The position numbers and the translations under genes are program-made. Below, piece after piece: positions 19,647 through 57,465 of a stretch of 64,000 nt of DNA. The DNA comes from Pseudomonas brenneri (GTDB taxonomy: Bacteria; Pseudomonadota; Gammaproteobacteria; Pseudomonadales; Pseudomonadaceae): positions 62,001 through 126,000 of the forward strand of contig NZ_VFIL01000003.1 of NCBI RefSeq assembly GCF_007858285.1, in the 5' to 3' direction. Under the pieces are notes generated by a model, which had not been told where the DNA came from, did no database searches, and saw only the letters and a program-made list of their open reading frames with translations. How positions within the stretch are numbered: the first letter of the stretch is position 1; each line of letters begins with the position of its first letter.

Positions 19647-20283
19647 GTTGTACCGTCGGTTTCCGGGCTGCCGGAAACGGCGTTCGGCACACACGACTTC
19701 TCACGGTCGGTGTCAGGTGCGTCAAGAGTGGTTGGCCACTCCAGTGTCCAGCAATACCGGCCAATTGGGCTGGTATCGCGACTTACGCGTCCTGCTTGCT
19801 GTGGTGACTTAATAAGCACTCAGTCAGGAGGAGGAATCAACCGGCGACTGTGGACGAGATGAAGCGTCTAAATATAAGCCTAGTGCTACACAGTCCGACG
19901 GTTGTGCATCTCCACCCTACACGTATCCCTGATAATTCGGGTGCTGCCGCGCGCAGAATCCGCAGCGGGTTGGCATTTACCGTGTTCTCCAATGGGGAGT
20001 TCACGCTCATGGCTAATAACAGGCGTTGTTTCCGAAGCATTCGCCGTGGTCTGGTACAAGACTGACTGCACTTTGTGAACTGGCCGTAAATATCGGCGCA
20101 AGAGACGAGTAATCACTCTGTTTCCTGCACTCGCTTCAGGCCTCATGTCACCTGCGCTTGTTACAATCTTGAGCCTTCCAGTGTGGCAAAAGCCCCGTAG
20201 GACGGCCTCGCGTCCTGATGAATTGCGATGGTCAGGGGCGGCAGTTTGCCGCGAGTCCTCTGTCCAGGCCGCTTTTGGCGGCG
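19647..20283 (-). promoter_or_regulatory. Long structured 5' leader of rne
   Basis: From the predicted start site near 20283 to the rne start codon is about 640 bases with no convincing gene. Several inverted repeats are visible, including AGGACG..CGTCCT close to the 5' end and the hairpin just before the start codon. RNase E messages are autoregulated through their leaders in E. coli, and a Pseudomonas rne-II leader motif is known; I infer that this leader is its counterpart. Confidence 0.65.
19659..19678 (-). promoter_or_regulatory. Perfect hairpin immediately upstream of the rne start
   Basis: An 8-bp perfect stem GTTTCCGG / CCGGAAAC with a 4-base loop, ending 12 bases before the ATG. The only GGA near the start lies within the stem, so the structure could limit ribosome access or serve as an RNase E site. 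Confidence 0.7.
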
Positions 20284-33486: not shown

Positions 33487-33613
33487 AAAAAAAACCCGGG
33501 TTCTGGGGGGTGAATCCGGGTTAAGACCATTAGGAGTAAACAAAGGTACGCGGTCCGTTGGTACCCATATCGGTGTGTCACTTGGGGGAGATGTCACACC
33601 GACAGATGAAGTA
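33487..33613 (-). ncRNA. rgsA: RgsA-like small RNA
   Basis: A roughly 127-base minus-strand transcript is predicted. A GATACT -10 element (33620-33625, RpoS-like) is followed by a stem TCGGTGTG / CACACCGA, a second hairpin GGTAC / GTACC, and a terminator AACCCGG / CCGGGTT with eight T. Size, location between tatD and the TetR gene, and hairpin order match RgsA, the RpoS-dependent, Gac-linked sRNA of pseudomonads, from memory. A TGTAAG half-site at 33765 could be a remnant of a GacA element. A 12-codon ORF inside it lacks a ribosome binding site. Confidence 0.72.
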
Positions 33614-33902
33614 TTGATCAGTATCCCGTGCAGTCCAGCCGCATCTGATCGTTTTTTAAACAGATTTGGAATACGTGCGCTTCGCTTGAGTTCTCATTGA
33701 CGGCAATACATTGCGTGAATCAGTGTTTTATTTCTGACCCGTATCGCCTGATTCGTTGGCGTGCTGTAAGTTTAGTGTGTGGGTTGTTCATATAGACGTT
33801 GCCCAACGACCGCCCAGTCGGGATAATCCCTCGCACCGGGTAAAACGTTCCGTCATCGGGGCATCCCACCCTTCCAATACTGACCTCTGCAGACCTCTTT
33901 CT
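33614..33902. other. Intergenic region upstream of rgsA and the TetR gene
   Basis: AT-richer than its surroundings. It holds the rgsA -10 at 33620-33625 on the minus strand and presumably the TetR promoter on the plus strand. I see no gene and no clear TetR dyad. Confidence 0.5.
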
Positions 33903-52558: not shown

Positions 52559-52900
52559 ATGAGCACAGCCTATCAAGAAGACATCAGCACCCACGTGTTA
52601 CGCCGCATGAAAGAGGGCGGCTTCGACTTCTCACGTTTTCACCCCATCGAGTTCTACGCCATTTTCCCGGATGAGGAACGTGCGCGTCGGGCTGCGGGTC
52701 GGTTTCGTGGGGAATCCATCAATGCCCAGATCAGCGCAAGGGATGACGGCGCCTGGTTTCTGGAACTGAGCAAGGTGATGTTCGCCACCTATGATGGCAT
52801 CGGTGATTTTGAGCAGGACTTTGAGGCGGTAGTCGAGCCCTTGGGCGGGATTATCGAGGGATGGGGCGTCAAGCACGAGGTTCGTGGGTTACCCATGTAG
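52559..52900 (+). CDS. rraB: RraB-type inhibitor of ribonuclease E
   Basis: A 113-residue protein of the RraB family, which in E. coli binds the RNase E scaffold and changes degradosome composition and activity. FYAIFPDEERARRAAGRF and the C-terminal GIIEGWGVKHEVRG fit the family. GAGGAGG precedes the ATG at good spacing. Its presumed target, RNase E, is encoded 33 kb upstream in this window. It appears monocistronic. Confidence 0.82.
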   Translation: MSTAYQEDISTHVLRRMKEGGFDFSRFHPIEFYAIFPDEERARRAAGRFRGESINAQISARDDGAWFLELSKVMFATYDGIGDFEQDFEAVVEPLGGIIEGWGVKHEVRGLPM

Positions 52901-53001: not shown

Positions 53002-53125
53002 AAAAAAAAGGCCACCCGAGCAGGGTGGCCAAAAGGGAAGACCGGAAAGAAGGGGAACCGGTCGGTACTTGCACCAACAAGTTACCGGCGGTGATGGGGC
53101 GATGCTGTAGGACGAATCCTGTTCA
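53002..53125 (-). ncRNA. Candidate small RNA with C-rich loop
   Basis: On the minus strand, TTTCAC-N18-GATAAT (-10 near 53139) could start a transcript of about 125 bases. It has three ordered hairpins: GGTA(A)CTTG / CAAGTACC, GACCGG / CCGGTC with loop TTCCCCTTCTTT, and a terminator GGCCACCC / GGGTGGCC with eight T. The terminator has its U tract only in this direction, so it does not serve rraB. The pyrimidine loop could pair with ribosome binding sites. I cannot name the RNA. Confidence 0.6.
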
Positions 53126-53243
53126 GCGGATGAGTGCGATTATCCGCAGGCTTTGCCAGGCAGTGAAATCAACTCTGACTATGCTGGTGATAGGCAATGC
53201 CTGCGTCTCTTTGAGGCTTGTGTGCCGAGGCAGGGGCGTTTGC

Positions 53244-53260
53244 TGCACCAGGACGGTGCG
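53244..53260 (+). promoter_or_regulatory. NtrC-type enhancer dyad
   Basis: TGCACC-AGGAC-GGTGCG matches the NtrC consensus TGCACC-N5-GGTGCA at 11 of 12 positions. Its centre is about 86 bases upstream of the predicted sigma-54 start site, a normal enhancer distance. A weaker half-site TGCACC is near 53070. Confidence 0.72.
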
Positions 53261-53310: not shown

Positions 53311-53326
53311 CTGGCACGGGCCTTGC
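53311..53326 (+). promoter_or_regulatory. Sigma-54 (RpoN) promoter of the ATP-grasp operon
   Basis: CTGGCACG-GGCC-TTGC matches the -24/-12 consensus YTGGCACG-N4-TTGC exactly. The start site is expected near 53338, 25 bases before the ATG and just before the AAGGAG ribosome binding site. Confidence 0.85.
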
Positions 53327-53362: not shown

Positions 53363-54772
53363 ATGATCCGCACTTATTACGATGAAATGTACGATGAGGC
53401 CGGCCAGGTCCGGCCTCACTATCGCGAGTTTGCCCGCTGGCTGGATCAAACCCCTGCCGAGCTGCTGGCTCAGCGTCGGCGTGAAGCCGATTTGCTGTTT
53501 CACCGCGCCGGTATCACCTTCACCCTGTACGGCGACGAGCAGGGCACCGAGCGCCTGATTCCCTTCGACACCATTCCGCGCAGCATTCCCGCCAGTGAAT
53601 GGCGCGTTGTGGAGCGTGGCTGTATTCAGCGGGTCAAGGCGTTGAACCTGTTCCTTGCCGACCTGTATCACGACCAGCGCATTATCAAGGCCGGGATTAT
53701 TCCAGCCGAGCAAGTGCTGGCCAACGAGCAATACCAGCTTGCGATGCAGGGCCTGGACCTGCACCGGGATATCTATTCCCACGTCTCGGGTGTGGACCTC
53801 GTACGCGATGGCGACGGCACGTACTACGTGCTGGAAGACAACCTGCGCACTCCCAGCGGTGTGAGCTACATGCTCGAAGACCGCAAGATGATGATGCGCC
53901 TGTTCCCCGAACTGTTCGCCGCCCAGCGCATCGCACCGATCGATCATTACCCCAACCTGTTGCTCGACACCCTGAAAAGCTCCAGCCCGCTGGACAACCC
54001 CAGCGTGGTGGTGCTGACGCCCGGGCGCTTCAACAGCGCGTTTTTCGAGCATGCGTTCCTCGCCCGGGAAATGGGCGTGGAGCTGGTGGAGGGTGCCGAT
54101 CTGTTCGTGCGTGACGACCGCGTATTCATGCGCACCACCGATGGGCCGAAGGCGGTGGACGTTATCTACCGTCGCCTCGACGATGCCTACCTCGACCCGT
54201 TGGCCTTCAACCCGGAGTCGATGCTCGGCGTGCCGGGCCTGTTGGCCGCCTATCGGTCGGGCAACGTGGTGCTGGCCAATGCCATCGGCACCGGGGTGGC
54301 GGATGATAAGTCGGTGTATCCCTTCGTCACTGACATGATCCGTTTTTACCTGGATGAAGAGCCAATCCTGAAGAACGTTCCGACGTTCCAGTGCCGCAAG
54401 CCTGACGAGCTGTCCCATGTGCTGGCGAATCTGCCGGAGCTGGTGGTCAAGGAGACCCAGGGTTCCGGTGGCTACGGCATGCTGGTCGGTCCGGCAGCCA
54501 CGGCCGCCGAGATCGAAGCCTTTCGTGCGCGGATCAAGGCCAAGCCCCATGCCTACATTGCCCAACCGACCTTGTGTCTGTCGACGTGCCCGACCTTTGT
54601 CGAAAACGGCATTGCGCCCCGGCATATCGACCTACGGCCGTTTGTCCTGTCCGGCAAGGAAACCCGTGTAGTGCCGGGCGGGTTGACCCGTGTGGCGTTG
54701 CGCGAAGGCTCGTTGGTGGTCAACTCATCACAGGGCGGCGGCACTAAAGACACCTGGGTGGTCGAGGAGTGA
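53363..54772 (+). CDS. Circularly permuted type 2 ATP-grasp protein
   Basis: A 469-residue circularly permuted ATP-grasp ligase (COG2308 type). The N-terminal part begins MIRTYYDEMYDEAGQVRPHY; YYVLEDNLRTPSGVSYMLEDR lies near 157; the ATP-binding loop VKETQGSGGYGMLVG near 365; and the end is SSQGGGTKDTW. I start at the ATG after AAGGAG; the open frame upstream crosses the promoter. Such enzymes are predicted to form amide or peptide bonds, and no substrate is known. The alpha-E gene follows 4 bases later. Confidence 0.93.
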   Translation: MIRTYYDEMYDEAGQVRPHYREFARWLDQTPAELLAQRRREADLLFHRAGITFTLYGDEQGTERLIPFDTIPRSIPASEWRVVERGCIQRVKALNLFLADLYHDQRIIKAGIIPAEQVLANEQYQLAMQGLDLHRDIYSHVSGVDLVRDGDGTYYVLEDNLRTPSGVSYMLEDRKMMMRLFPELFAAQRIAPIDHYPNLLLDTLKSSSPLDNPSVVVLTPGRFNSAFFEHAFLAREMGVELVEGADLFVRDDRVFMRTTDGPKAVDVIYRRLDDAYLDPLAFNPESMLGVPGLLAAYRSGNVVLANAIGTGVADDKSVYPFVTDMIRFYLDEEPILKNVPTFQCRKPDELSHVLANLPELVVKETQGSGGYGMLVGPAATAAEIEAFRARIKAKPHAYIAQPTLCLSTCPTFVENGIAPRHIDLRPFVLSGKETRVVPGGLTRVALREGSLVVNSSQGGGTKDTWVVEE

Positions 54773-56537: not shown

Positions 56538-56590
56538 CTGCCGGCGATAAGGCCCGAAAGATCGCCATCGCCGCCAAGCTGGTTCCTACA
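56538..56590. repeat. Degenerate REP pair overlapping the cytochrome c stop
   Basis: CCTGCCGGCGATAAGG and the inverted ATCGCCATCGCCGCCAAGCT with GGTTCCTACA tail. The TAG stop of the minus-strand cytochrome gene falls inside its outer TTGTAGGAAC end. Confidence 0.6.
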
Positions 56591-57410
56591 AGGCCGCGTC
56601 GGTTTTGCGAGCGGCCATATGCTTCAAATACCCCACCAGCAGGTCCAGGTCGGCATCAGGCAGCACGCTGGTGGCAAACGCCGGCATCTTCGCCTGTGGC
56701 CAGTGCCTCAGGCTTTGGGGATCACGGATATAACGCTTGAGGAAGTCGCCGCCAAAATACTCGGTCGGGCTGTAGGGCACATTCAGGTCCGGCCCTACCT
56801 GTGCGTCACCCGCGCCGTTGAGGCGATGGCAGGCCAGGCAGTTCTTCTGGAACAGGGCGAACCCCAGGTTGACCGGATCATCCACCGCCAGCGCAGGGTC
56901 CGGCAGCAGCACCGGGAAGCGTTCGGCGACGGTTTTCAGCTGTCTGATCTTAGAGACCTGGAATGGCCACTGTTCCGGGCTGATCCCGCTTGCCTGGGGC
57001 TGGGTCCACACCAGATAGAACGGGCCGGCACTGGGTTTGCCAGCGGCCAGCGGGGGCCACGGATGAGCCGGATCCTCCACCGCCAGCCACGCCTGTGCGC
57101 CGCTTTGCGCAAGCAGCGGCGCGACGGCCAGTTCGGCGGCGAAACCATCGAGTGCCACCGCCTGCACATGGTTCTGCGCTACCAGGCCCGGTAGGAGTGC
57201 GGCCATTGGGACTGCGCGATACGTCATATTGCGCTTGTAGGAAACATCATCGACGATCTGTACTACCTGCGCCGCCGGATGCTGGAGCAGGTCGGCGGTT
57301 TGCCAGGTCGTGCGGTTGTGATCCAGCTCGATGGTCAACTGGGCCGCGCTGACGGGGTAGGCCAGGATCAGCATCAGCAGGACGATAATCTGTTTCAAGG
57401 AGAAGCCCAT
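56586..57410 (-). CDS. Periplasmic c-type cytochrome
   Basis: A 274-residue exported protein. A signal peptide at the N-terminus (MGFSLKQIIVLLMLILAYPV, cleaved near SAAQ) is followed by a 140-residue domain without haem sites, then a C-terminal cytochrome c domain with CLACH at 191-195 and a distal methionine in AKMPAFATS. The N-terminal part looks like a molybdopterin-oxidoreductase-type fold, but this is uncertain. The ATG has AAGGAGAA upstream. It may accept electrons from a periplasmic enzyme. Confidence 0.85.
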   Translation of the reverse strand: MGFSLKQIIVLLMLILAYPVSAAQLTIELDHNRTTWQTADLLQHPAAQVVQIVDDVSYKRNMTYRAVPMAALLPGLVAQNHVQAVALDGFAAELAVAPLLAQSGAQAWLAVEDPAHPWPPLAAGKPSAGPFYLVWTQPQASGISPEQWPFQVSKIRQLKTVAERFPVLLPDPALAVDDPVNLGFALFQKNCLACHRLNGAGDAQVGPDLNVPYSPTEYFGGDFLKRYIRDPQSLRHWPQAKMPAFATSVLPDADLDLLVGYLKHMAARKTDAAL

Positions 57411-57465
57411 TTCGCAGTGACGATGCGGGCCCACGATACCGGAAAACGGCCACTAGACTGTAGGC

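Follow-up and report, generated by a model that had tools for sequence, protein, structure and literature searches.

The 64,000 nucleotides of Pseudomonas brenneri DNA analyzed here (the window) almost certainly contain a free-standing small RNA gene, located on the minus strand at 53002-53132. The predicted RNA is about 131 nt long, with a start deduced from the position of the -10 box. Its gene lies in a gap of 462 bases that is bordered on one side by rraB (52559-52900, plus strand; Pfam RraB, 79.7 bits) and on the other by an ATP-grasp gene of the circularly permuted type (53363-54772, plus strand; CP_ATPgrasp_2, 546.1 bits). This gap houses a complete minus-strand transcription unit, which has its own promoter and intrinsic terminator and stands outside the neighboring mRNAs. 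Because both neighbors are encoded on the plus strand, no recognizable minus-strand gene needs this terminator. The gene is a conserved and uncatalogued regulatory RNA gene, occurring as a single copy in roughly half of the genus genomes sampled and lacking a match at gathering score in Rfam 15. A preliminary description of this DNA had proposed a minus-strand small RNA with its own promoter and terminator, set between two plus-strand genes; both the RNA and the setting, with rraB on one side and the ATP-grasp gene on the other, were borne out. That description was right in kind, and the emphasis should now shift from a hairpin loop to the promoter element and the linker.

The promoter scan placed a -35 box, TTCACT, at 53162-53167 and a -10 box, GATAAT, at 53139-53144, both on the minus strand. 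TTCACT-N17-GATAAT is the sole sigma-70-like match on either strand between 52500 and 53700, a region for which shuffled sequences gave a mean of 0.3. The GATAAT and the TTTCAC 18 bases upstream of it (53163-53168), named earlier as the possible promoter, are both present when the sequence is read; as a -35 box, however, TTCACT with its 17-base spacer is the better choice. A 31-bp element, CTATCACCAGCATAGTCAGAGTTGATTTCAC (53163-53193, minus strand), ends in the -35 region and is a candidate activator site. In an alignment of 30 loci this element was the most strongly conserved part, with the consensus CTATC-N2-CAGCATAG-Y-CAGAGTTGATTTCAC. It lies upstream of the box 53002-53145 drawn in the preliminary description, which encloses the RNA but leaves the most informative part outside. 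In the loci fetched by the RNA, the information content was 1.83 bits per column for the element, 1.81 for the -10 box, and 0.63-0.79 directly upstream. The distance from ATTTC to the -10 box is identical in 146 of 155 distinct elements and one base longer in 2, the -10 box having been missed by the search pattern in the other 7. At up to 3 mismatches, the element occurs at one place in its own genome.

The element is widespread in the genus. At up to 3 mismatches it was detected in 186 of 398 genus genomes, against 0 of 398 for a reversed control pattern, and never more than one copy appeared in any row of the 398-genome table. A blastn search with the 151-base stretch matched 105 of the 398 genomes. 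In the family sample, searched with one more base fixed than in the 398-genome pattern, 12 of the 33 same-genus genomes contained the element, compared with none of 165 genomes from 18 other genera. A scan of named genomes returned at least 118 stretches; among the matches listed (80), all were Pseudomonas, including P. fluorescens, P. chlororaphis, P. brassicacearum, P. koreensis, P. jessenii, P. marginalis, P. viridiflava, P. simiae, P. gessardii and others. P. chlororaphis and P. brassicacearum are root-associated or biocontrol species. A search of E. coli genomes gave no match.

In the sequences compared, the promoter element and the RNA predict each other. The RNA alone fetched 53 distinct loci, a count that omits seven weak non-syntenic matches (L069-L071, L073-L076) and ten low-scoring loci of the same genus fetched later, and in 52 of the 53 the element was found within 3 mismatches. 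The sole exception, L068, retains CTAT-N7-ATAG and GATTTC. The reverse search gave a similar picture: of 118 loci fetched by the element (L107-L224), the linker and terminator were recognized by pattern in 111 and by eye in two others (L150 and L164), which amounts to 113 of the 114 complete loci, 4 of the 118 being incomplete. Only L176 is without them. At that locus the element has been kept and unrelated, repeat-like sequence occupies the place of the RNA body and terminator, which looks like a natural loss.

Model searches gave larger counts (280 of 398 and 76 of 148 genomes), which overstate the family because the weak matches are non-syntenic. Six weak matches in other genera (L069, L070 and L073-L076; 28-33 bits) and a second match in the own genome (L071; 24 bits) were rejected as non-syntenic and as having no element by pattern; L364-L366, three of the ten low-scoring same-genus loci, were likewise rejected as non-syntenic. 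The other-genus loci examined thus reached 33 bits, below weak matches such as G483 (34.5 bits). A better lower bound is 186 of 398 plus the eight genomes that the element pattern missed (L068, L359-L363, L367 and L368).

These eight divergent loci, recovered via weak model matches, carry 4 to 10 mismatches to the 31-bp element, and in all of them rraB or the ATP-grasp gene adjoins the RNA. All eight retain a dyad, CTAT-N7-ATAG, followed by N7 and NNATTTC. In the window the dyad spans 53179-53193 on the minus strand and is centered at about -54. Binding sites of LysR-type regulators have the form T-N11-A. The dyad has this form and stands upstream of the -35 box at a fixed spacing, the features by which such sites are recognized, and it is classed here as a candidate LysR-type site. 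Past the dyad, a third half-site at N7 reads TGAT in 149, CGAT in 5 and TCAT in 1 of the 155 distinct elements, in a count whose pattern demanded CTAT, ATAG and the final AT and left the first two letters alone free. The dyad is not absolute, since its first half reads CTCT in G046 and CTAC in G233. With these features, LysR-type control of the RNA is probable.

The regulator may be a genus-specific activator, LysR-type or other, that has the RNA as its only or main target, for which the chances are a little short of even. The near-invariant 31-bp element with one copy per genome, its presence in only 1 of the 19 genera of the family sample, and its mostly fixed distance to the -10 box would all be expected of such a dedicated activator. 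However, no regulator gene lies directly beside the RNA in the window, where the neighbors are rraB and the ATP-grasp operon.

A second candidate is OxyR, which would make the RNA a peroxide-response RNA and the Pseudomonas counterpart of OxyS, the OxyR-activated RNA of enterobacteria. OxyS and the present RNA are alike in possible LysR-type control, in half-sites that are spaced by 7 and end at the -35 box, and in size; they differ in that one outer half-site is unconserved here, and no Rfam match at gathering score was obtained. OxyR binds half-sites in an ATAG-N7-CTAT-N7-ATAG-N7-CTAT-like arrangement. Their spacing is the same as that of the dyad here (PMC5720770). Compared with this arrangement, the central CTAT-N7-ATAG pair is perfect, the right outer half-site is present at N7 as NNAT, and the site ends at the -35 box, but the left outer half-site is unconserved, its commonest four-letter forms being GCGG, GCAG, AATG and CACT. 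The window site agrees with 12 of 16 consensus positions, which equals P. aeruginosa ahpC (12) and exceeds katB (9) in table 2 of PMC5720770; as katB with its 9/16 illustrates, verified OxyR sites can score poorly too. The sites compared in that table nevertheless all start with AT, unlike the left half-site here. In addition, when the own genome was scanned for the four-part consensus with up to 3 mismatches allowed, the small RNA site was not among the matches, and the 31-bp element is single in the genome, unlike a regulon-wide box. Because the left outer half-site is unconserved, OxyR was dropped from certain regulator to rival, and its control of this RNA is considered unlikely. Elsewhere in the own genome, a 14/16 match to the OxyR consensus lies upstream of a gene that by eye resembles thioredoxin reductase (L091:1501-1537).

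The body of the RNA is composed of hairpins, a linker and a terminator, all on the minus strand. From the 5' end these are hairpin 1 (GCUGAACAGGAUUCGUCCUACAGC, 53104-53127), hairpin 2 (53064-53086), and hairpin 3 (53040-53063), in which GACCGG/CCGGTC holds a 12-nt loop, TTCCCCTTCTTT (53046-53057). The linker CUUCCCUUU (53032-53040) follows, and its first C doubles as the closing base of hairpin 3. The terminator stem GGCCACCC/GGGTGGCC (53010-53030) has 8 pairs, 7 of them G-C, and leads into a terminal tract of 8 U (53002-53009). A strong terminator with a U tract in the minus direction only had been described before and was confirmed; the plus reading gives AAAAGGG after the stem. Of the RNA of about 125 nt ending near 53002 that had been anticipated, the 3' end stands and the length becomes about 131 nt (53132-53002). 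Hairpins in series were likewise seen, although folding of the 131-nt RNA predicts four of them and not three; the third bears the pyrimidine loop UUCCCCUUCUUU, and the last is the terminator.

The predicted fold of the 131-nt RNA has an energy of -45.7 kcal/mol (z -4.27), and 0 of 200 shuffles were equally stable. For the 151-nt stretch with flanks, z was -2.92 and 1 of 200 shuffles was equally stable. Shorter forms from other genomes, folded alone, also beat their shuffles at 68 nt (z -4.36) and 81 nt (z -2.89); a 58-nt form did not (z -0.53), 53 of its 200 shuffles being equally stable.

Base changes across the loci indicate that the RNA structure is under selection, with limits. A model-fitted alignment of 67 loci (59 distinct) contains two-sided changes in 7 of 14 pairs, in 35 cells, which 0 of 500 shuffles matched; further pair types in the same alignment were not above shuffles (310/500). 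In hairpin 3, one pair shows a double change from C-G to U-A in 11 of 59 distinct rows, counted on the 67 hand-picked long-form loci fitted to the model, a procedure that leans towards structure and was used because MAFFT displaces some rows by one at this hairpin. Among the 151 RNAs scored, the fourth pair of the terminator is A-U in 110, G-C in 36 and G-U in 5; the best-pairing choice was taken as the 3' partner, and 7 of 158 RNAs went unscored, their arm being missed by the pattern. Hairpin 2 has 9 pairs, 4 of which show two-sided changes, with 90.1 percent of cells paired. Hairpin 1 is invariant within its group and is shortened or absent in other lineages; its 8 pairs are constant in 36 sequences and thus hold no covariation information. 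When hairpins 1 and 2 were taken jointly, the cells paired, the two-sided cells and the covariation score were each reached by 0 of 500 shuffles, and the number of pairs with two-sided changes (133/500) and further pair types (131/500) were not above shuffles. A slide of these two hairpins by -2 gave 21 two-sided cells versus 20, but only 54.3 versus 95.0 percent of cells paired. The compensatory changes in the stems that the preliminary description had named as a check are therefore present, and some measures lie within the shuffle range.

The length of the RNA varies greatly among genomes. A total of 158 distinct RNAs, collected by requiring the promoter element, the -10 box and 6 or more T at the terminator, range from 57 to 164 nt, with clusters near 58, 68, 81, 118-132 and 139-164 nt. 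On one FastTree tree of rraB and the ATP-grasp gene, with 133 tips and branch support not weighed, parsimony requires no fewer than 12 switches between short and long forms. The five length classes need 18 changes on this tree, whereas none of 200 label shuffles needed fewer than 67; RNA length is thus inherited yet changes often. The RNA of L360 is apparently the shortest, measuring about 47 nt from the predicted start to the U tract.

The pyrimidine-rich loop on which the preliminary description dwelt is indeed exposed on a hairpin in the window, but it is not a common feature of the family. Hairpin 3 is limited to certain lineages, and a pyrimidine run of at least 7 in the 37 nt before the linker was found in 63 of 86 long RNAs versus 6 of 72 short ones (57-82 nt); the feature belongs to the longer versions. 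The linker, an anti-Shine-Dalgarno-like candidate seed, stands ahead of the terminator in nearly all of the 158 distinct RNAs, as the exact sequence CUUCCCUUU in 151. This linker, rather than the loop, would be the candidate segment for pairing that is close to universal. At the divergent loci L068 and L359 a CTCCTGTGG stretch stands in place of the linker, and the CU-rich loop (GCTCCCCTTCTT) is kept. The seed is thus not universal, and either stretch may carry the anti-Shine-Dalgarno character.

A U-rich stretch together with a terminator and its U tail is a known Hfq-binding module. The sequence features typical of Hfq clients, a U tail of at least 7 and a U-rich stretch before the terminator, are both present in the RNA, and a tail of this length was found in 157 of 158 RNAs (at least 6 having been required for collection). 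That the RNA is held by Hfq and also blocks ribosome binding sites is, as a joint proposal, slightly favored. Another possibility is that the RNA works through protein binding, to Hfq or as a sponge of the CsrA/Rsm type, and not through mRNA pairing. The smallest versions, which have little beyond the U-rich linker and the terminator with its U tail, are consistent with such a role; the linker, however, is conserved as the exact CUUCCCUUU, beyond mere U-richness, and GGA motifs judged by eye are inconstant across the RNAs. A function through protein binding alone is therefore held to be quite unlikely, while CUUCCCUUU itself may be conserved as an Hfq site instead of a seed.

Potential targets were searched among ribosome binding sites complementary to the linker. 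In 21 genomes, AAGGGAAG-N(2-14)-ATG occurred at 264 sites versus 185 for the reversed control, an excess to be expected of any Shine-Dalgarno-like string. The own genome has 23 places with AAGGGAAG-N-ATG versus 19 for the reversed control, and the genes concerned include a LysE-type exporter, a PcaB-like and a nitrilase-like gene, named by eye from their translations. The rsd/algQ gene, which has a conserved ribosome binding site, AAGGGAAGAGA, complementary to the linker, was rejected as a target. At this site AAGGGAAG was found in 37 of 47 genomes with the element versus 18 of 23 without it, in a comparison that covered 70 of 115 rsd matches and took "without" to mean no element at up to 3 mismatches, so that a divergent copy is possible. 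Because AAGGGAAG is about equally frequent with and without the element, the rsd site is explained by the translation of rsd itself. As an observation on this gene, AAGGGAAGAGA is widely conserved in the genus sample (L253 and relatives), and the blastn match often starts about five bases before it.

The neighborhood of the RNA is conserved as well. Across 140 distinct loci, all of them recognized by the element and with 25 more lying too near the locus end to judge, 139 have a convergent rraB beyond the 3' end of the RNA and 134 have the ATP-grasp gene on its 5' side. Six of the 140 loci (L021, L024, L025, L026, L050 and L124) have the RNA and the element without an ATP-grasp neighbor. L124 was fetched by the element and the other five by the RNA; as all 140 loci were recognized by the element, only these five count for its presence. 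In the five, the element and the RNA stay together without the nitrogen-type operon gene adjoining. By eye, L021 and L025 have in place of the ATP-grasp gene a gene like the cytochrome-c-like one of the window (56586-57434), and L050 has an Alpha-E gene there.

A nitrogen-type promoter alongside the RNA formed part of the preliminary description. This sigma-54/NtrC-type promoter is that of the ATP-grasp operon: the RNA and the element persist in the 6 of 140 loci where the ATP-grasp neighbor is absent. The sigma-54-like site, TGGCACGGGCCTTGC (53312-53326, plus strand), has one mismatch to TGGCACN5TTGCW, and is weak on its own, with 4 matches in the window versus 4.08 expected. About 52 bases further upstream lies TGCACCAGGACGGTGC (53244-53259, plus strand), which we take to be an NtrC-like motif. 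Both sites precede the ATP-grasp, Alpha-E and transglutaminase genes. The upstream block does sit between the RNA and the sigma-54-like site, and it might have served the plus-strand ATP-grasp operon as an enhancer or promoter, with the hairpins as a leftover terminator. This is very improbable, because the block is kept in six of 140 loci without an ATP-grasp neighbor, five of them fetched by the RNA, which largely refutes such a control function; moreover, its spacing to the minus-strand -10 box is nearly fixed, and the linker and terminator accompany it. A small protein gene or an mRNA leader is hardly credible, since an open reading frame of at least 10 codons closed inside the RNA is present in 38 of the 158 RNAs but absent in the other 120, and the next gene, rraB, is convergent in 139 of 140 distinct loci.

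Comparison with Rfam 15 gave no family at gathering score, either at the locus in the window or at the loci of 20 relatives; the known RNA family that the preliminary description had considered as a possible outcome did not turn up. Elsewhere in the window, matches at gathering score were obtained for RgsA (33496-33688, minus strand; 189.9 bits) and for the rne-II leader (19656-19926, minus strand). RgsA and the other Pseudomonas RNAs in Rfam resemble the new RNA in being intergenic small RNAs, but RgsA is located elsewhere in the window and the new RNA matches none of them at gathering score. Two weak matches cover hairpin 3, the linker and the terminator: the best is RF02837 (anti-hemB of Burkholderia), with 22.2 bits where 49.5 are needed for gathering, and the other is RF00519 (suhB/mmgR), with 21.9 bits against 41. 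In a permissive Rfam scan of the short-form locus L072, the only match at the RNA was asX2, with 20.1 of 70 bits and on the opposite strand, and it was rejected together with three microRNA matches elsewhere in the locus that look spurious. Among the matches listed from the openly licensed literature, no title or beginning of an abstract describes the RNA, and six sequence strings matched no paper there, publication elsewhere being possible.

AbcR1 may be regarded as the closest working analogue, while membership of its family (alpha-r15) is unsupported by the homology tests made, no Rfam match at gathering score having been found at the locus or in 20 relatives. AbcR1 and AbcR2 of Sinorhizobium and relatives are trans-acting RNAs of 114-121 nt (PMC8844928). 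AbcR1 of Sinorhizobium carries anti-Shine-Dalgarno motifs in a loop (CUCCUCCC) and between stem-loops (UUCCCCUC), and its transcription depends on the LysR-type regulator LsrB (PMC8844928). To that extent, the two RNAs share C/U-rich anti-Shine-Dalgarno stretches both in a loop and between stem-loops, together with LysR-type control, which is predicted for the Pseudomonas RNA. They differ in length, the Pseudomonas RNA being only 57-82 nt in many lineages.

Taken as a whole, the gene is reasonably likely to encode a LysR-type-activated, Hfq-type, non-coding trans-acting RNA that blocks ribosome binding sites and works like rhizobial AbcR1. Judging from its sequence, a LysR-type regulator would bind CTAT-N7-ATAG, centered some 54 bases ahead of the start and accompanied by another half-site beside the -35 box, and would activate a sigma-70 promoter whose -35 box is imperfect. 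This promoter would then yield a short RNA, with 131 nt in the window and down to about 57 nt in many relatives, that ends at the strong intrinsic terminator with about 8 U; this anatomy is observed and its expression is predicted. Hfq would hold the U tail and the U-rich linker. The exposed CUUCCCUUU would pair with AAGGGAAG- or GGGGAA-like ribosome binding sites and block translation, and in long forms the pyrimidine-rich hairpin loop would pair likewise. Those hairpins that follow the 5' tip and precede the linker would be dispensable parts, repeatedly gained and lost.

The near-frozen promoter and the RNA body with its repeatedly changing hairpins form a natural experiment on which parts a small RNA needs. 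To identify the regulator, the 31-bp element could serve directly as a bait. A broader proposal, bold and on the whole doubtful, is that of a genus-wide redox- or metabolite-sensing switch, in which a single LysR-type regulator (either OxyR or a dedicated protein) would switch on an anti-Shine-Dalgarno RNA convergent with the AbcR1 and OxyS design, an RNA that several lineages would have pared down to about 47-60 nt. If this is true, the pared-down form, in essence a promoter, a nine-base seed and a terminator, would be among the smallest independently transcribed base-pairing RNAs known.
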